Shown: positions 11,661-31,125 of the stretch, piece after piece | Layout: every line of letters begins with the position of its first letter | Numbering within the stretch: the first letter of the stretch is position 1 | NCBI GenBank assembly: GCA_001798855.1 | Contig: MGQQ01000169.1 | Coordinates: 1 to 42,795, forward strand | Origin: Deltaproteobacteria bacterium RBG_16_49_23 | GTDB taxonomy: Bacteria > Desulfobacterota > BSN033 > UBA1163 | DNA: 42,795 nt | Direction of reading: 5' to 3' | Made by a program: the position numbers and the translations under genes | The notes under the pieces: model-generated | What the model was told of the DNA's origin: nothing | The model's input: the letters and a program-made list of their open reading frames with translations, nothing else | Database searches by the model: none

Positions 11661-13421
11661 ATGTATGGTTTTTTTAATAAAATCCTGAGGATCAATCTCA
11701 AGGCAAAAACCTCTAAGGAAGAACCCATCACTGATTCTGTTTATGAATCCTGTCTGGGTGGAAAAGGGTTGGGTATCCATCTTCTCATGAAGGAAAATCC
11801 TCCTGGCGTTGATCCCTTATCTCCTGGCAACAGACTGATCTTCGCCCTCGGCCCGATCACCGATAGCCGGATCTATGGGTCCTGCCGGCATGGCGTCTTC
11901 ACAAAATCCCCTTTAACCGGAATCTTCTCCGAATCCTATGCCGGTGGGAAAGCCGCAGAACCCATGAGCCGGACGGGATTTGACGCATTCATCTTCGAGG
12001 GAGCATCCGATCAGCCTGTCTGGGTTGAAATCTCCGACCACGCCGTGCGCTTCCATGATGCAAATGACCTCTGGGGCAAGGATACATATTCTACAGAGGA
12101 TGAAGTATTAAAAAAGGTCAATCAAAAGGGAACCGGAGCCCTTGTCATTGGCCCTGCTGGAGAGAATCTCGTCCGATATGCGGTCATTGAAAATGATTAC
12201 TGGCGGTCCCTTGGAAGAACCGGAGTGGGCGCGGTGATGGGCTCCAAAAAGATGAAGTCGATTGCTTTTCACGGTGCAAAGATGAAGGAGACTGCCGACC
12301 CTGACCGGATCGCACAGTTCGCGAAAGAGACGTTGGATCGTGGAAAAGAAAACCCGGGTGTTCAAAACTACCGGAGGATGGGCACGCCGATGCTTGTTGC
12401 CATGAACAATGCGGTCGGGGGCTTCCCATCGAAATACTGGCATCTTGGGACCTTTGAAGGATGGGAAAAGATCAGTGCAGAAGCTCTTCTTGAACGATGC
12501 CAGGTGAGACCCACTGCCTGTCTTCGCTGTTTTGTGGCCTGTGGAGATTTAAGCGAGGTCAAAGAGGGGAGACACAAAGGTCTCAAGATCGAAGGGCCGG
12601 AATATGAGACGATTTACGCCTTTGGCGGACTCTGCATGGTTCACGAGATCGAGGAGATTGCCTATCTCAACGATATCTGCGACCGCCTGGGCATGGACAC
12701 GATCTCTGCCGGAAGTCTCTGCGCCTTTGCCATGGAGGCATCGGAGATGGGACGGATTCAAGAGAGAATTTCCTGGGGCGATGTGGACAGGATCGCTCAA
12801 CTTCTCCATGATATTTCATCCAAGAAAGGAATCGGGGCCATCCTGGCAGAAGGGATTCGGCATGCTGCCAAGACCTGGGAGATGGAAGATGTCGCCATCC
12901 ATGTGAAGGGCCTTGATCCTGCCGGTTACGATCCAAGAATCCTCAAAGGGATGGGCCTCGCCAATGCCACCTCCGATCGGGGGGCTTGTCATTTAAGGGC
13001 GACCTTCTATAAAGCCGAACTTGCCGGAATGATCCCAATGGATCAGATGGAAGGAAAAGCAAAGCTCTTCCTTGAATTCGAAGATCGCTTTAACATTCAC
13101 GACTCCCTGATCTTGTGCCGTTTCTATCGTGACCTTTACTGGGATTGGGCACACCTTTCAGCCATAGTTGAAATGACGACAGGGCTCAAACTGGATGAGG
13201 CCGGATTGCGAAAAATCTCATCCACAGTACAGAATGAGACCCGGAGATTCAACCTTCGTGAAGGCATGAAACCGGAAGAAGACACGCTCCCCAAGAGATT
13301 TTTTGACGAACCTCTCGGCAAAGATGGAAAGACGATCCGAAGGGAAGACCTCCGTCGGATGCTTCAGGATTACTACGCCCTGCGGGGCTGGAGCCCTGAG
13401 GGGATTCCCGGTATAGTTTAA
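11661..13421 (+). CDS. Tungsten-type aldehyde:ferredoxin oxidoreductase
   Basis: This 586-residue cytoplasmic enzyme is of the AOR family, which oxidises aldehydes to carboxylates and reduces ferredoxin, or runs in reverse, with a W-bispyranopterin cofactor and one 4Fe-4S cluster. The N-terminal beta-rich domain starts NKILRINLKAKTSKE, the cofactor region includes GRTGVGAVMGSKKMK at about 185-199, cluster ligands are C287, C290, C294 and C486, and the second pterin motif SDRGACHLR is near 438-446. All ligands are present and the length is close to the family norm of about 600. An AGAGGT site precedes the ATG. It may consume aldehydes made by the neighbouring aminotransferases and alcohol dehydrogenase; the real substrate is unknown. 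Confidence 0.95.
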   Translation: MYGFFNKILRINLKAKTSKEEPITDSVYESCLGGKGLGIHLLMKENPPGVDPLSPGNRLIFALGPITDSRIYGSCRHGVFTKSPLTGIFSESYAGGKAAEPMSRTGFDAFIFEGASDQPVWVEISDHAVRFHDANDLWGKDTYSTEDEVLKKVNQKGTGALVIGPAGENLVRYAVIENDYWRSLGRTGVGAVMGSKKMKSIAFHGAKMKETADPDRIAQFAKETLDRGKENPGVQNYRRMGTPMLVAMNNAVGGFPSKYWHLGTFEGWEKISAEALLERCQVRPTACLRCFVACGDLSEVKEGRHKGLKIEGPEYETIYAFGGLCMVHEIEEIAYLNDICDRLGMDTISAGSLCAFAMEASEMGRIQERISWGDVDRIAQLLHDISSKKGIGAILAEGIRHAAKTWEMEDVAIHVKGLDPAGYDPRILKGMGLANATSDRGACHLRATFYKAELAGMIPMDQMEGKAKLFLEFEDRFNIHDSLILCRFYRDLYWDWAHLSAIVEMTTGLKLDEAGLRKISSTVQNETRRFNLREGMKPEEDTLPKRFFDEPLGKDGKTIRREDLRRMLQDYYALRGWSPEGIPGIV

Positions 13422-23906: not shown

Positions 23907-24758
23907 GTGAGCAGCCTTCCCCGGGAGAAAAAGAAAACGAGCAAGAAGAAATCCTCTTACAAGCCCATTGTTCCGGCCGTGGATCAGGCCTCCCGGATCC
24001 TTCTCTGTTTGAGTAAAAATTCCAATTTCAAGATGGGGCTGACCGAGATCTCCAGAGAAGTCGGGATTCATAAAAGCAAAGGCTTCTCCATCCTCAACAC
24101 CCTTAGCCAGTTTGGATTTGCGGAAAAAGATCTCCAGACCAAAACTTACTCGCTCGGTCCCGGTCTCCTTTCCCTATCACGGCATGTTTTAGATAACATT
24201 CGTTATCCGGAAGTGGTCGCTCCCTTTCTCCAGCGCCTCGCTGTTGAAACGAATGGAACGGCTATCTTCGGATTGATAAATGGCGAACATGTCATCGTGG
24301 TCGGCAAACATGAAGGAAATCAGAATATAGGGTTTACTGTTCGGCTTGGGCACCAGTTTCATATCACTCTGGGCGCCCACGGGAAATCCATTTTAGCTTT
24401 CATGCCTGAGACTGAAAGGGAAAAAATACTGTCTCGAAAGAAGGTCTTCTTCTATTTGGACCCATCCCGCGTGGATAGGGAGTTTCTGAAGGAAGAGCTG
24501 GCGAGATGCAGAGCTCTTGGATATTCGCAAGATATTGGGAACATCACTCCTGGAGCCAATGTGGTCAGCGCTCCCTTGTTCGCGAACCATGAGAAATTGA
24601 TTGGCTGCCTCATCCTCATCGGAACCTTTCCGGAGAAGAGAATTCAGGAATACGGACCAAAGGTGGCCGATATGGCTTTCCAAATCTCACAAAAACTCGG
24701 CGCTAATGTTGAAAACATTTACCCCGTTAGAAAGCCCCACTGCTTGCAGCGGGGATGA
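23907..24758 (+). CDS. IclR-family transcriptional regulator
   Basis: The 283-residue protein has a basic N-terminal tail, a winged helix-turn-helix at about residues 25-85 (LTEISREVGIHKSKGFSILN) and the IclR effector-binding domain after it (TVRLGHQFHITLGAHGKSIL, then DIGNITPGANVVSAPLF). The start is GTG at 23907. The ligand is usually a small organic acid. The gene lies just upstream of the CoA ligase and molybdoenzyme genes, so it probably controls them. Its last 12 or so codons run into the palindromic element at 24721, so the tail PVRKPHCLQRG looks acquired rather than ancestral. Confidence 0.92.
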   Translation: MSSLPREKKKTSKKKSSYKPIVPAVDQASRILLCLSKNSNFKMGLTEISREVGIHKSKGFSILNTLSQFGFAEKDLQTKTYSLGPGLLSLSRHVLDNIRYPEVVAPFLQRLAVETNGTAIFGLINGEHVIVVGKHEGNQNIGFTVRLGHQFHITLGAHGKSILAFMPETEREKILSRKKVFFYLDPSRVDREFLKEELARCRALGYSQDIGNITPGANVVSAPLFANHEKLIGCLILIGTFPEKRIQEYGPKVADMAFQISQKLGANVENIYPVRKPHCLQRG

Positions 24759-24886: not shown

Positions 24887-26188
24887 ATGAACTATTGGAA
24901 TCCATACTTGGAGACGCTGCCCAGAGAGTCATACGGTCAAATTGAGCTTTCCTACTTTCGGAAGATGTTCTCCTTTGCCAAGGAGCACTCAGCCCTCTAC
25001 CGGGAAAAGTTGAAGGGAGTGGATGAGGGGGATATCCGGTCTCTTGACGACCTCAAGAAGATTCCCCTCACAGAAAAAGAAGAGATGAGGAAATATCAGG
25101 AGGTGGAGCCCTTCCCTTACGGAGGGCTTCTGGGAAGCGATATTGAAAGAGTGACCACCTTCAGACAGACCAGCGGTACAACCGGGAAACCTATCTACGT
25201 TCCCGAAACCTATGAAAGCTGGCAATGGAGGGTCGAAGCATGGTGCCATATTCTCTATATGGCAGGCTTCAGACCCCGTCACAGGGTCTTTCTTCCCTTT
25301 GGCTACAATGTTTATGTCGCCTTCTGGGAAGCCCACTTCGCCTCCGAAAAGGTGGGCTGCGAGCTTGTCCCCGGCGGGGCGCTCGACACAAAGGGAAGGA
25401 TCCGCAAGATTCTGGAGATCCGGGCCAACGGGATGATGAATACTCCGACTTATGGGCTTCACATCGCCGAGGAGGCAAAATCGATGGGTATCGACCCCGC
25501 CTCTTTCGGAATCGAAAGGATGCTCTGTGCGGGAGAACCAATGCCATCCGCCACGAGAAAAAGGCTGGAGGAACTCTATCAGTGCCATGTCTTCGATCAT
25601 ATCGGCGGGACGGAACCGTGCGCATGGGCGGGTATGTGTGAAGCCAAAGACGGCATGCATATCATCGAGCCTTTCTTTCTGGTCGAGATCCTTGATCGTG
25701 AAACGCTCCAGAAAGAGGTAAACGAAGGGGAGATTGGCGTTGCGGTCGTCACCCCTCTCGGCAGAAGGTCTTTCCCCCTGATACGGTTCAATACAAAGGA
25801 CCTTGTGATCAAAGGAGAAGAATCCTGCCAATGCGGAAGAACCTCAAGAAAGATCAAAGAGGTTGTGGGAAGGATTGATGATCTCCGGAAGGTGCGGGGC
25901 GTACTCTTCTCGCCAAAAACGGTGGAGGAGGTGATCCGGAAGGAGTTTCAGGAGGTCGAGGAGTTCGAAATCATTGTGGAGAGAAGAGGCCTGATGGACG
26001 TCATCACGCTTAAGGCCGAAGTCAACCCGCAACTTTCGATCAGTTCGATCGAGCAAACAAAAAACCGGCTCCATGAGGCTCTGAAGATCGCCACCAACCT
26101 GACCTTCCATGTCATCATGGAACCTCCGGGGTCGCTCCCCCGCTACACGCTCAAGGCAAAACGTTTTAAGGACTTAAGGGACATCTGA
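24887..26188 (+). CDS. PaaK-like aryl/acyl-CoA ligase (AMP-forming)
   Basis: This 433-residue enzyme has the length and layout of phenylacetate-CoA ligases, which activate an acid through an acyl-adenylate. The P-loop TSGTTGK is at residues 95-101, a PTYGLHIAEEAKSMG region follows, then GTEPCAWAG (the adenine/acyl motif), LIRFNTKDLV, CQCGRT near 315 and GRIDDLRKVRGVLFSPKTVE at the hinge to the C-terminal domain. A GGAGG site precedes the ATG. It follows iclR and precedes a molybdoenzyme, so it probably makes the CoA ester that the pathway uses. An aromatic or arylacetic acid is the best guess; other acids are possible. Confidence 0.9.
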   Translation: MNYWNPYLETLPRESYGQIELSYFRKMFSFAKEHSALYREKLKGVDEGDIRSLDDLKKIPLTEKEEMRKYQEVEPFPYGGLLGSDIERVTTFRQTSGTTGKPIYVPETYESWQWRVEAWCHILYMAGFRPRHRVFLPFGYNVYVAFWEAHFASEKVGCELVPGGALDTKGRIRKILEIRANGMMNTPTYGLHIAEEAKSMGIDPASFGIERMLCAGEPMPSATRKRLEELYQCHVFDHIGGTEPCAWAGMCEAKDGMHIIEPFFLVEILDRETLQKEVNEGEIGVAVVTPLGRRSFPLIRFNTKDLVIKGEESCQCGRTSRKIKEVVGRIDDLRKVRGVLFSPKTVEEVIRKEFQEVEEFEIIVERRGLMDVITLKAEVNPQLSISSIEQTKNRLHEALKIATNLTFHVIMEPPGSLPRYTLKAKRFKDLRDI

Positions 26189-26294: not shown

Positions 26295-26483
26295 ATGAAT
26301 GAGCAGATAAGAAATGAGATCGAAAGGATTGAGGAAAGCGCCAGAAGGCTACAAACCCTGGCACAGGATAATCCTGCCATCCTCAGGAATGCGGATATCC
26401 TTTTGACCTTTGTCTATATTCTTAAGTTTATCACTCCTGTAGGGCGGCTAGACCCGGCCACGGGAGGTAAGGAGGAGAGCTGA
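26295..26483 (+). CDS. Small protein coupled to the molybdoenzyme gene
   Basis: This 62-residue protein begins with an amphipathic charged helix (NEQIRNEIERIEESARRLQ) and has a hydrophobic segment FVYILKFITPV near the C-terminus. AGGAGG lies 8 bases before the ATG, and its stop overlaps the start of the molybdoenzyme gene (TGATG), so it is very likely translated. I do not recognise the family. Size and coupling fit a chaperone, assembly factor or small subunit of the molybdoenzyme, but this is only inference. Confidence 0.78.
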   Translation: MNEQIRNEIERIEESARRLQTLAQDNPAILRNADILLTFVYILKFITPVGRLDPATGGKEES

Positions 26484-28582
26484 TGGAAGAGGTGAAAAAG
26501 ATTCGAACGGCGTGCCGGAGTTGCCACGGAGGCTGCGGGGTCATCGCCCATGTCAAAGACGGCAAGGTGATCAAAGTGGAGGGAGATCCGGATTCCCCCA
26601 TCAGCCATGGAACCCTGTGCAGCAAGGGACTGGCCATCACCCAATTGGCCTACCATCCGGATCGGGTCCTCTACCCCATGAAAAGAATGGGGGCCAAGGG
26701 AGAAGGCAAATGGAAACGAATCTCATGGGATGAGGCTCTGGATACCATCGTTGAAAAATTTAAAAAAGTTGTCGCTGAATACGGTCCGGAATCGATCGTT
26801 GTCGGTCAGGGGACCGGCCGGGATTTTGAAAGCCATCTCTACCGTTTTGCCAATCTTCTCGGGACCCCGAATGTTCTTACCGCCGGGCATATGTGTTATG
26901 TCTCCAGGGTCGGATCAACCCTGATCACCTGCGGCACTTTGCCCATTGCCGATTACGAAGGTGGGCCCAAATGCATCGTCATGTGGGCCTGCAATCCGCA
27001 GTGGACCAACCCGGATGAATACAAGGGGGAGAATTTCTGGAGGGCTTATAAGAAAGGCGTCAAATTGATCTGCATCGATCCCCGAAAAGGATTTATCGCT
27101 AATAGAGCAGACCTCTGGCTTCAAATCCGCCCGGGGACGGACGCTGCCCTTTCGATGGGGTTTCACCGGGTGATCATTGAGGAAGAGCTTTATGAGAGGG
27201 ATTTTGTTGAGAACTACATTAACGGCTGGGACGCCTTCAAGGAAAGGGTGATGAAGGAGTATCCCCTGGAAAAGGTTCAGGAGATCACCTGGGTTGACAA
27301 GGAGCTCATCCGGAAAGCGGCCAGGATGTATGCCACAACCAAGCCGGCCTGTATTCATTGGGGCGTCCCAACGGAACAGACGATCAACTGCGTCAATTAC
27401 ACGCGGGCAACGACTGGATTAATGGCGATTACAGGGAATTTGGATGCTCCTGGTGGAAATGCCCTCTTTGTAAATCCGCCTACCCGGACAGTGGCCGAAT
27501 TTTCCCGCCATCGTGACCTTTCCCAGGAACAGCAGAAAAAAAGATTGGGCGGAGATCAGTTTAAACTTGGAGCCAGGGTTGCCCTGATCAACCCCAAAAA
27601 AGCATGGGATGCGATCGTTACCGGCCAACCCTATCCCTTGAAGGCCGGAATTCTTTGCGGCAGCAATCCAGTGATAACAAGGGCCAACGCTAAAGAGGCT
27701 TATGAGGCGCTGAAGAAAATAGAGTTCCTCGCTGTCATCGATTTCTTTCTCACACCGACAGCCGAGCTGGCTGATATCTTTCTGCCTTCAGGCAGCTGGC
27801 TTGAGCAGAACCACGTCGCAGACAACTGGAAACGGCACGGCTATGTCTTAGCCAGACAGAAATGCGTGGAGATTGGGGAATGCTGGCAGGACCACAAGAT
27901 CTTTCTTGAACTGGGCAAACGAATGGGCCAGGATTGGCCTGACACCGTGGAGGATGCGCTGGATTATCTCCTCGAGCCCTCCGGACTGACATGGGAGCAA
28001 TTCAAGGAGAAAGGATATCTGCGAGGGGAGATGGTCTATTACAAATACAAGCAGAGAGGGTTCTCCACCCCGACGAAGAAGGTGGAACTCTATTCGACCG
28101 TTCTGGAGAAATGGGGTTACGATCCACTTCCCAAATATGTCGAAGTCCCCGAGAGCCCGGTTTCAACGCCCCATCTTCTCAAAGACTACCCGTATATTCT
28201 GAATGCAGGACTCCGGACTCCGACTTTTTTTCATTCAGCGAACCGGCAGATACCTGCTTTGAGGGAGATACGACCCGATCCCATTGTAGAGATTCATCCG
28301 GAGACCGCCAGGAAACATCATATTAAAGAGGCTCAATGGGTTTATATTGCCTCACCGAGGGGGCGCATCAAACAGCGCGCAAAACTGAATGACAACATTG
28401 ATCCAAGAGTAGTCGTTGCAGAGCATGGGTGGTGGTTCCCTGAAATCAAAGACCCGGGTCACGGTTGGAATGTCTCCAATGTCAATATTCTGACCGACAA
28501 TGCCTATGAGACCCTTGACCCTGCGATGGGCTCCACCAATCTGAGAGTCTGTTTGTGCAATATCGCTTCCTGTGAAGAGTGA
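26483..28582 (+). CDS. Molybdopterin (DMSO reductase family) oxidoreductase
   Basis: This 699-residue catalytic subunit has a 4Fe-4S site at C11, C14, C18 and C46, the domain II start YPMKRMGAKGEGKWKRISWD, and C138 in GHMCYVSRVG where the family places the residue that binds molybdenum or tungsten. The end shows the dinucleotide-binding domain (DYPYILNAGLRTPTFFHSAN and RVVVAEHGWWFPE). No Tat signal is seen, so it acts in the cytoplasm. From memory the layout resembles acetylene hydratase and related enzymes, but His15 stands where that enzyme has its key aspartate, and PadB-like phenylacetyl-CoA oxidoreductases are another relation. Its partner is the Fe-S flavoprotein at 28719. Confidence 0.9.
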   Translation: MEEVKKIRTACRSCHGGCGVIAHVKDGKVIKVEGDPDSPISHGTLCSKGLAITQLAYHPDRVLYPMKRMGAKGEGKWKRISWDEALDTIVEKFKKVVAEYGPESIVVGQGTGRDFESHLYRFANLLGTPNVLTAGHMCYVSRVGSTLITCGTLPIADYEGGPKCIVMWACNPQWTNPDEYKGENFWRAYKKGVKLICIDPRKGFIANRADLWLQIRPGTDAALSMGFHRVIIEEELYERDFVENYINGWDAFKERVMKEYPLEKVQEITWVDKELIRKAARMYATTKPACIHWGVPTEQTINCVNYTRATTGLMAITGNLDAPGGNALFVNPPTRTVAEFSRHRDLSQEQQKKRLGGDQFKLGARVALINPKKAWDAIVTGQPYPLKAGILCGSNPVITRANAKEAYEALKKIEFLAVIDFFLTPTAELADIFLPSGSWLEQNHVADNWKRHGYVLARQKCVEIGECWQDHKIFLELGKRMGQDWPDTVEDALDYLLEPSGLTWEQFKEKGYLRGEMVYYKYKQRGFSTPTKKVELYSTVLEKWGYDPLPKYVEVPESPVSTPHLLKDYPYILNAGLRTPTFFHSANRQIPALREIRPDPIVEIHPETARKHHIKEAQWVYIASPRGRIKQRAKLNDNIDPRVVVAEHGWWFPEIKDPGHGWNVSNVNILTDNAYETLDPAMGSTNLRVCLCNIASCEE

Positions 28583-28703: not shown

Positions 28704-28718
28704 AAGAGGAGGAAAGCA

Positions 28719-30620
28719 ATGGGAAAAGTATCCTTGTTGTTCAATGAAGATGAATGCATGGGTTGCCATGCCTGTGAAGTGGCCTGCAAGCAGGAACATG
28801 AACTTGGCGTAGGCCCGAGAGTGGTCAGGGTTCTTGAAAGGGCTCCCTTTTTTAAGCCCTTGTTTTGTCACCATTGTGACAATGCCCCCTGCGCCCTGTC
28901 CTGTCCGGAAGATGCCATCTCCATCGACCCGAAGACAAAGGTCGTTCTTGTGAATGAAGAAAAATGCAATGGCTGCGATGCGGTGGCAGGAAAGTCCGGA
29001 GTTGAAAAACAGCAGACATCTCCGTGTAAGACAGAGTGTCCGGCGCATATCGATGTCCAGGGATATGTCAACCTTGCGGCCAAAGGGGAATTTGAGGAAG
29101 CCCTTCAACTCATCAAGCTCGCAAACCCCTTCCCTTCCATATGCGGACGGGTCTGTCATCATCCCTGCGAGTCGGGGTGCAACCGCGATCAGATCGATGA
29201 GCCCGTAGGGATTCGCTCCATTGAGCGTTTCCTGGCCGATCTCGATATGAAGGCTGACAGGCGTTACATGCCGGAAATAAAATCAAAGAAAAAGGAAAAG
29301 GTCGCCATCATCGGATCGGGTCCTGCCGGTATGACCTGCGCCTACTACCTGGCTCAAGAAGGCTATAGGGTAACGGTCTTTGAGAAAGGCTCCGTATTGG
29401 GCGGAATGCTCACAACAGCCATACCCTCCTATCGGCTTCCTCAAAAAATTGTCGAAGCTGAGATTCAACTCATTCGTGATATGGGCGTGACCATGAAAAC
29501 CGGCGTGGAGGTCGGCAAGGATAAGACCATCGGTCAATTACGCCAGGATGGGTTCAATGCCTTCTTCTTGGCCATCGGCGCCCAGCAAAGTGTCCGGCTC
29601 GGCATTGAGGGTGAGCATTTGGAAGGGATTTACGGTGGTTTGGATTACCTCCGTCAACTTAATCTCGGAAAACCAGTGAGGTTCGCGGAAAAGGTTGCCG
29701 TAATTGGCGGAGGCAATGCGGCGATGGATGCCGTAAGATCGGCACGCCGGGTGGGATCTGAGAAGGCCTTTATCCTTTACCGGCGAAGCCTGGAGGAGAT
29801 GCCTTCAAGACCCGAAGAGATTAAAGAGTTCCGGGAAGAAAAGATCCCTATCAAGCTCCTGACTCAGCCTGTGCGTTTTATCGGCAAAAACGGCCGCGTC
29901 AATGCAATCGAGTGTGTCAAAATGCGCTTGACCGAACCTGATGGAAGCGGCCGTCGGAAACCAGAACCTGTCCCGGGCTCGGAGTTTACGATGAAAGTCG
30001 ATGCCGTGATTACTGCCCTCGGACAGGAATCCGATTGGTGCTGCCTGACCCAGGAGTGCGCCTGCACCTTGAACGAATGGGGAACCATGAGGGTTGATTC
30101 CCTGACCCTTCAAAGCGATGATCCCGATATCTTCGCAGGGGGAGATGCCATCAGAGGTCCTCAAAGCCTGGTCGTGGCTATTGCGGATGGAAGACAGGCA
30201 GCCATTTCGATCAACCGGTATTTGAGCGGCCAGAACCTCCGGCTGGGGAGAGATACGGAATTGAAAGCGATCACAGAACCCAGGAAAGAAAAATATGATC
30301 CCGCTCCCCGGGCTCAGATGGTCTCTCTTGATCCTCAAAAACGGGTCAGGAGCTTCAGCGAAGTCCAGAAGGGATTGACCAAGGGAGTGGTAATTCAGGA
30401 GGCCAAAAGATGTATCTCCTGCGGCACCTGCTGTGTTCAGGCCTGTCCGTATGAGGTCATGCAGTTTGACCAGGATGTCACTAAGGCAACGAAGTGCGAC
30501 CTCTGTGTTGAAAAGCGAGGGCGGAAAGAGATCCCTGCATGTTTTGCGATTTGTCCGACACGATGTATTTCCTGGGGTGATCCAAAGGAGTTTCCAAAAG
30601 AAGTTTATGCGGGGCTATGA
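28719..30620 (+). CDS. Polyferredoxin with inserted GltD-like NAD(P)H/FAD module
   Basis: This 633-residue electron-transfer protein begins like DmsB/PadC-type subunits: CMGCHACEVAC at 13-23 and CHHCDNAPCALSCP at 50-63. The third motif starts (CNGC, 83-86) but then a GltD-like module of about 450 residues follows: a helical CxxxCP Fe-S region from C103, FAD motif GSGPAG near 199-204, and a second Rossmann fold at GGGNAAMDAVRSARR. After FAGGDAIRG and a linker, the rest of the ferredoxin resumes: CISCGTCC...CP from 565 and CDLC...CFAIC to the end. It can take electrons between NAD(P)H and the adjacent molybdoenzyme. A strong AAGAGGAGG site precedes the ATG. Confidence 0.9.
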   Translation: MGKVSLLFNEDECMGCHACEVACKQEHELGVGPRVVRVLERAPFFKPLFCHHCDNAPCALSCPEDAISIDPKTKVVLVNEEKCNGCDAVAGKSGVEKQQTSPCKTECPAHIDVQGYVNLAAKGEFEEALQLIKLANPFPSICGRVCHHPCESGCNRDQIDEPVGIRSIERFLADLDMKADRRYMPEIKSKKKEKVAIIGSGPAGMTCAYYLAQEGYRVTVFEKGSVLGGMLTTAIPSYRLPQKIVEAEIQLIRDMGVTMKTGVEVGKDKTIGQLRQDGFNAFFLAIGAQQSVRLGIEGEHLEGIYGGLDYLRQLNLGKPVRFAEKVAVIGGGNAAMDAVRSARRVGSEKAFILYRRSLEEMPSRPEEIKEFREEKIPIKLLTQPVRFIGKNGRVNAIECVKMRLTEPDGSGRRKPEPVPGSEFTMKVDAVITALGQESDWCCLTQECACTLNEWGTMRVDSLTLQSDDPDIFAGGDAIRGPQSLVVAIADGRQAAISINRYLSGQNLRLGRDTELKAITEPRKEKYDPAPRAQMVSLDPQKRVRSFSEVQKGLTKGVVIQEAKRCISCGTCCVQACPYEVMQFDQDVTKATKCDLCVEKRGRKEIPACFAICPTRCISWGDPKEFPKEVYAGL

Positions 30621-30750: not shown

Positions 30751-31125
30751 ATGGAACACGTGACACAACAACCCCCAACATGGAAAGACCCCAAAACCGG
30801 ATTGGAATGGCAGTGGGAATCTCCGGGCGAGATGACCTGGCATGAAGCCCGGGAATATGCAGCATCGCTTGCATTGGATGGTAAAACGGATTGGCATTTA
30901 CCCGCCTTGGCAGAACTTGAATCTTTGCTGGACAGGACGAAGGCGCGTCCTGAGGGCAGGCCCCCTGTGCGGGAAGATGTTATCTTCAGGGATAACCTGT
31001 CCTACTGGTCATCAACGACGTTTGAGGACGATACTCAAAACGCATGGATTGTCATGTTCGACGGCGCCTATGTGCTGAGTTACTGTAAGAGCAACCTGTA
31101 TCATGTCCGCTGTGTCAGAGGGTAG
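30751..31125 (+). CDS. DUF1566 (Lcl-domain) protein
   Basis: This 124-residue protein has the DUF1566/Lcl C-terminal pattern: PKTGLEWQWE near the start, WHEAREYAASLALDGKTDW, LPALAELESLLDR, YWSSTTFEDDTQNAWIVMFD and a closing YHVRCVRG. These domains occur in secreted or lipoprotein-type proteins and are thought to bind carbohydrate or act in surface structures, but their function is not established. No signal peptide is seen, and no good ribosome site. The gene stands alone, flanked by repeats, and may be a recently inserted or trimmed copy. Confidence 0.75.
   Translation: MEHVTQQPPTWKDPKTGLEWQWESPGEMTWHEAREYAASLALDGKTDWHLPALAELESLLDRTKARPEGRPPVREDVIFRDNLSYWSSTTFEDDTQNAWIVMFDGAYVLSYCKSNLYHVRCVRG

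Follow-up and report, generated by a model that had tools for sequence, protein, structure and literature searches.

Gene Content of the Locus

The window analyzed here is the whole stretch of 42,795 nucleotides of contig MGQQ01000169.1 (positions 1–42,795, forward strand) from Deltaproteobacteria bacterium RBG_16_49_23 (GCA_001798855.1). It encodes a 633-residue protein in which a GltD-like FAD/NAD(P)H module lies inside a DmsB-type polyferredoxin, immediately downstream of a molybdo/tungsten enzyme. The features of the locus are as follows.

23907–24758, + strand: putative IclR-family regulator, also upstream in several related loci
24887–26188, + strand: putative PaaK-like AMP-forming CoA ligase, also upstream in several related loci
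26483–28582, + strand: partner molybdo/tungsten enzyme, acetylene-hydratase-like, 699 aa, no apparent signal peptide; it adjoins the fused gene in related loci
28706–28714, + strand: ribosome-binding site GAGGAGGAA, judged good to strong, seen directly in the sequence
28719–30620, + strand: fused gene, DmsB-type polyferredoxin with internal GltD-like FAD/NAD(P)H module, 633 aa, kept at full length in two phyla
28719–28982, + strand: ferredoxin N-half, residues 1–88, with motifs I and II and the host motif III CxGC (C83, C86)
28983–30428, + strand: insert, residues 89–570, ending in the module's own EAKRCISCG; delimited by empty-site alignment with L122, L079, L116, L117 and L118
29016–29252, + strand: Fer4_20 (GltD/DPD N-terminal Fe-S domain), residues 100–178, with C103, C107, C142, C146, C150 and C154, all invariant
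29298–30191, + strand: Pyr_redox_2, residues 194–491, with FAD site GSGPAG (199–204) and NAD(P) site GGGNAA...YRR
30411–30617, + strand: ferredoxin C-half, residues 565–633, with complete motifs III and IV
30751–31125, + strand: Lcl_C (DUF1566) small protein, which often accompanies the pair in related loci

Architecture of the Fused Protein

The order of the parts was read directly from the translated gene. Motif I of the ferredoxin comprises C13, C16, C19 and C23 and motif II comprises C50, C53, C58 and C62, followed by a CNGC at 83–86; after the insert come motif III (C565, C568, C572 and C576) and motif IV (C593, C596, C608 and C612). Pfam places Fer4_20 and Pyr_redox_2 at residues 100–491 and Fer4_11 at 554–621, and NCBIfam places FDH3_beta at 4–87, the GltD-like PRK12771 at 92–618 and DmsB at the C-terminus. 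The PRK12771 score of 503.8 bits lies just under the curated cut-off of 516, and the module combines Fer4_20 and Pyr_redox_2 with the FAD and NAD(P) glycine motifs of GltD-like proteins. Of the 16 motif Cys of DmsB (TIGR02951), all 16 are present in one chain in the order I–IV, split by the insert. Against the curated cut-off of 214 bits, the whole protein scores 94.1 and the joined ends 103.6 bits; judged by these scores, the fused protein is a relative of DmsB and not DmsB itself. An AlphaFold model of the 633-aa chain, built from an alignment of 13 sequences, reached a pLDDT of 56.5, too low a confidence for the geometry to be interpreted.

The initial annotation had described DmsB-like motifs I and II in the N-terminal end, a GltD-like FAD/NAD(P)H enzyme of about 450 residues in the middle and complete motifs III and IV behind it. 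This description holds: Cys 13–23 and 50–62 are invariant in relatives, the enzyme measures about 480 residues, and C565–576 and C593–612 lie in a C-half that is closest to DmsB-type motifs III–IV (TIGR02951 positions 90–156). It had also taken the CNGC at 83 as the beginning of motif III, which is right in so far as this is the CxGC position of the host's motif III; however, a complete motif III follows the insert as well, and the first CxxC of that later motif (565–568) comes from the GltD module, as part of its conserved EAxRCxxCG tail. When the protein was split as that annotation had proposed, the ends scored 52.4 and 52.8 bits to TIGR02951 singly and 103.6 bits joined, and the middle scored 465 bits to PRK12771.

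The same architecture could be read as a PRK12771-like GltD protein, already equipped with a C-terminal [4Fe-4S] domain, to which a short ferredoxin has been joined at the N-terminus, so that the ends are unrelated and nothing has been inserted. It is true that PRK12771 spans residues 92–618, the C-terminal Fe-S region included, and that GltD proteins in general carry the EAxRCxxCG tail. However, the C-half is nearest to DmsB-type motifs III–IV and, in the lineages A and B described below, to the very class of standalone ferredoxins that is nearest to the N-half, and the two ends, once joined, match standalone orthologs from the corresponding locus along their whole length, which leaves this reading highly improbable.

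Empty Sites and Ferredoxin Lineages

Empty sites were observed directly at L078/L122, L079, L116, L117 and L118, where an ortholog of the molybdoenzyme (78–83% identical to that of the window) is followed by an uninterrupted ferredoxin of 148–159 aa. The four standalone ferredoxins that were measured share 58–60% identity with the N-half of the window protein and 40–48% with its C-half, and alignment with the uninterrupted ferredoxins of these loci puts the insert between A88 and C571/C572. The IclR and PaaK-like genes are common to the window and the L078/L122 locus. No GltD gene was seen near the standalone orthologs, which suggests that the catalytic subunit can use another electron partner.

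In a second lineage, B, the ferredoxin is fused in L082 and L113 and standalone in L024, each beside a molybdoenzyme 59–61% identical to that of the window. For all fused A and B proteins tested, both halves had their nearest counterpart among the standalone ferredoxins of their own lineage. A more distant fused lineage C (L080, L121 and the partial L081) has molybdoenzymes 30–31% identical to that of the window.

The empty-site orthologs, together with the nearness of both halves to one standalone ferredoxin class, bear out the original claim of an internal insertion: the GltD module of the fused protein is a true insertion into a DmsB-type ferredoxin, not an end-to-end fusion. The case that the annotation had named as fatal to this claim, ends that match two unrelated ferredoxins, was not seen, and such an origin is rejected on account of the halves tracking the same standalone class in lineages A and B. 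An AegA-type end-to-end fusion is likewise rejected, since the ferredoxin is split around GltD and the AegA model gives 346 of 1003 bits.

Conservation and Distribution of the Fused Form

Conservation of the fused form is a direct observation. Full-length relatives in Thermodesulfobacteriota MAGs are 69–81% identical and those in Anaerolineae (Chloroflexota) 53%, and this recurrence in independent MAGs of two phyla, at 53–81% identity, rules out an assembly chimera or chance. The fused form was found in 14 of the 395 sampled genomes of the window's phylum (two of them distant) and in 2 of 301 sampled Chloroflexota genomes (one of them distant). Among the matches listed for 300 genomes of Bacillota_A there was no fused-type match, and two scans of viral contigs for further sequences found none.

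All ligand-motif Cys, C83 and C86 included, are invariant in 12 relatives, except for L032, which ends at a contig end before the C-terminus. The dN/dS is 0.05–0.13 in the N-end, the insert and the C-end, where dS is not saturated, and on these estimates purifying selection acts on all three parts. At the NAD(P) site the window protein has GGGNAA...YRR and the Chloroflexota forms have CLE, a difference which suggests the use of NADP(H) by the former and of NAD(H) by the latter.

A different N-terminal Fe-S-type domain, NuoF/HydB-like by eye, is fused before a GltD module in L045, L046 and L004; the modules of L045 and L046 are 49% identical to that of the window.

The Partner Molybdoenzyme and Its Neighborhood

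In every locus with a readable upstream flank, the fused gene is seen directly downstream of an acetylene-hydratase-like molybdoenzyme. The closest solved relative of this partner is acetylene hydratase (PDB 2e7z; 438 bits). The catalytic, water-activating Asp beside the Fe-S ligands of acetylene hydratase (CQSCD) is replaced by His in the partner (CRSCH), which points to a redox rather than a hydratase role, and the latter is disfavored. The motif HMC of the partner aligns with YMC of acetylene hydratase, in which this Cys is the metal ligand. Taken by its sequence, the partner is probably a redox-active, acetylene-hydratase-like bis-pterin enzyme.

In one genome (L028 5172–5990, the same as L115 6414–7232), the fused gene stands beside only the C-terminal third of a molybdoenzyme gene, which has probably decayed or been rearranged; this genome also carries an intact lineage-B pair (L113). 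The Lcl_C gene follows the fused gene in the window, and in L079 (5585–6055) and L116 (5830–6207) it lies between the molybdoenzyme and the standalone ferredoxin; its product is possibly a third component or an accessory protein of the pair. Elsewhere in the window (11661–13421), a tungsten-family aldehyde:ferredoxin oxidoreductase without a neighboring ferredoxin subunit sits between branched-chain amino-acid-type transporter clusters.

History of the GltD Module

The trees of the module and of its neighbors conflict, as their topologies directly show. On the ferredoxin and molybdoenzyme trees alike, L082, L113 and the lineage-B member of L024 group together with 99–100% support, whereas the GltD tree places L113 with Chloroflexota-type modules and L082 with the group of the window. 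Forcing the two lineage-B GltDs together was rejected (AU p 0.010), and uniting all lineage-A fused forms as one clade on the molybdoenzyme tree gave p 0.031. Furthermore, the molybdoenzyme tree makes L032 the sister of L033 and the GltD tree does not, and the GltDs of lineage C (L080, L081 and L121) belong to another clade. A strictly single origin with congruent partners is disfavored by these disagreements, and the GltD module has probably been exchanged or inserted more than once, although lineage B offers two fused members, L032 is cut short at a contig end, and paralogy may also produce such conflict.

The direction of change has been weighed separately. Fused and standalone states interleave on the molybdoenzyme tree with at least five changes, and on this unrooted tree a gain looks the same as a loss; the A and B lineages, moreover, have GltDs that lie near each other. 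The fused form could then be ancestral in the subfamily, and the uninterrupted copies would derive from precise loss of GltD, with some exchange, a history that is compatible with the mechanism proposed below. We consider it rather unlikely: DmsB-type ferredoxins at large are uninterrupted, including those of the more distant homologs L081, L011 and L013, the rejected grouping of the lineage-B GltDs requires at least one acquisition or exchange, and the GltDs of lineage C come from another clade.

A broader proposal, to which we give about an even chance, is that GltD acts as an exchangeable cassette for NAD(P)H input. It would have been inserted repeatedly at equivalent Cys motifs of at least two or three DmsB-type ferredoxin lineages, of HdrA and of NuoG/StnC, its own terminal CxxC rebuilding the broken motif each time and, in the ferredoxins, the displaced host CxGC being recruited to a GltD cluster. 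Gain, loss or swap of the cassette would re-wire the same molybdoenzyme to another carrier, and also between NADP-type (YRR) and NAD-type (CLE) sites.

Proposed Mechanism and Its Meaning

In the fold of NarH and FdnH, each cluster is bound by a pair of motifs, either I+IV or II+III, and the II/III domain lies away from the catalytic subunit. With this pairing, each half of the split ferredoxin would need the other to complete any cluster, and the chain must double back around the insert. Insertion at motif III would affect the domain that faces the electron exit in related enzymes, not the catalytic subunit, so the GltD module appears to occupy the docking place of a membrane or other acceptor partner. 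The terminal CxxC of the module would rebuild motif III, and the CxGC (83/86) displaced from the host motif probably supplies the missing ligands of the first cluster in the GltD N-domain, for a predicted total of six [4Fe-4S] clusters.

The fused protein and the upstream partner likely form a soluble NAD(P)H-linked molybdo/tungsten oxidoreductase of the cytoplasm, whose electron-transfer subunit is the fused protein, a single DmsB-type ferredoxin split at motif III by GltD. Considering the NarH/FdnH motif pairing, the polarity of AorABC and the path in StnC, electrons would run from NAD(P)H through FAD, two GltD [4Fe-4S] clusters and four ferredoxin clusters to the [4Fe-4S] cluster and Mo/W of the partner, or in the opposite direction. 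That NAD(P)H is electronically wired into the molybdoenzyme is our best inference; the cofactors, electron path, cluster ligands, substrate and direction of such a system are all predictions from sequence.

The GltD module might instead serve a free partner, for example a ferredoxin in a bifurcation as in NfnAB, with the polyferredoxin not primarily feeding the molybdoenzyme. The GltD domain lies close to modules of the Nfn/StnC kind, of which some work in bifurcating complexes, and it carries the conserved YRLP arginine; but StnC retains this arginine and does not bifurcate, the neighborhood showed no NfnA-like or HydBC-like gene, and the constant neighbor is the molybdoenzyme. We judge a free partner to be quite unlikely and retain the coupling to the molybdoenzyme.

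Orthologous operons that have or lack the NAD(P)H module offer a before-and-after case of the re-plumbing of an electron chain, where the same class of Mo/W enzyme is paired either with a plain ferredoxin or with one that carries its own NAD(P)H dehydrogenase. In uncultured anaerobic bacteria, an enzyme that already existed seems to have been connected to a new source of electrons, and at a demanding site for a domain insertion, as distant parts of the chain share the Cys of the split motif. An uncharacterized acetylene-hydratase-like family of anaerobes is also predicted to be redox-active and NAD(P)H-coupled, through which its activity would become assayable.

Comparison With Known Systems

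Insertion of GltD is itself already known, in HdrA and in the NuoG-like StnC, neither of which the initial annotation had named, and the DmsB-type ferredoxin is, as far as found, a new host. The initial annotation was unsure whether the exact arrangement had been studied; among open-licence PMC papers, no description of a GltD insertion in a DmsB-type ferredoxin was found.

The nearest outside relatives of the window's GltD module (61–64% identity) lie inside HdrA-like proteins of about 1,400 aa in the same phylum. Type III HdrA, with GltD inserted in the ferredoxin domain, was described in 2025 from nine archaeal sequences (PMC12054007), and the HdrA-like proteins of L123–L130 go beyond these. 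Comparison of the junctions shows that type III HdrA, like the fused protein, has the module inside a ferredoxin motif with an EAxRCxxCG end, whereas its host is an HdrA with a thioredoxin-reductase core, part of an Hdr complex, and the fused chain consists of ferredoxin and GltD only. In the HdrA-like proteins, the module opens with SPCKxxCPAH, immediately ahead of which no CxGC stands, and closes with EAxRCLxCG; from this, the CxGC at 83–86 can be assigned to the host and the CxxC at 565–568 to the module. HdrA-like proteins with internal GltD (frames of 1410–1530 aa) are seemingly common in the window's phylum and in Bacillota_A, where junctions were checked in L123–L130 and the Bacillota_A members judged by frame length and match.

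Another host is StnC of the Sporomusa-type transhydrogenase, whose path has been solved as FAD-C7-C6-C5, from NADPH through FAD and the GltD clusters to the clusters of the host (PMC10482914; PDB 8oh5). It shares with the fused protein a GltD-like NADPH/FAD module followed by the host's clusters, but the host is NuoG-like with an inactive molybdopterin-fold domain, and the partner is the bifurcating StnAB. AegA and YgfT combine the same two domain types, a DmsB/HydN-like ferredoxin and GltD, yet in them the complete ferredoxin comes first and GltD follows end to end, in contrast to the split ferredoxin of the fused protein. On the side of the partner, acetylene hydratase is alike in the conserved position of the metal-ligand Cys and differs in being a hydratase without such an electron-transfer subunit and in having Asp where the partner has His.

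In AorABC, FS4 of the polyferredoxin lies 9.5 Å from the FAD of AorC, and FS1/FS2 face AorB (PMC10413684; PDB 8c0z). There, separate subunits, an AOR-family catalytic subunit and filament formation set the complex apart, but a polyferredoxin and an FAD/NAD subunit likewise serve a W enzyme, with the same parts and the same polarity of electron flow.
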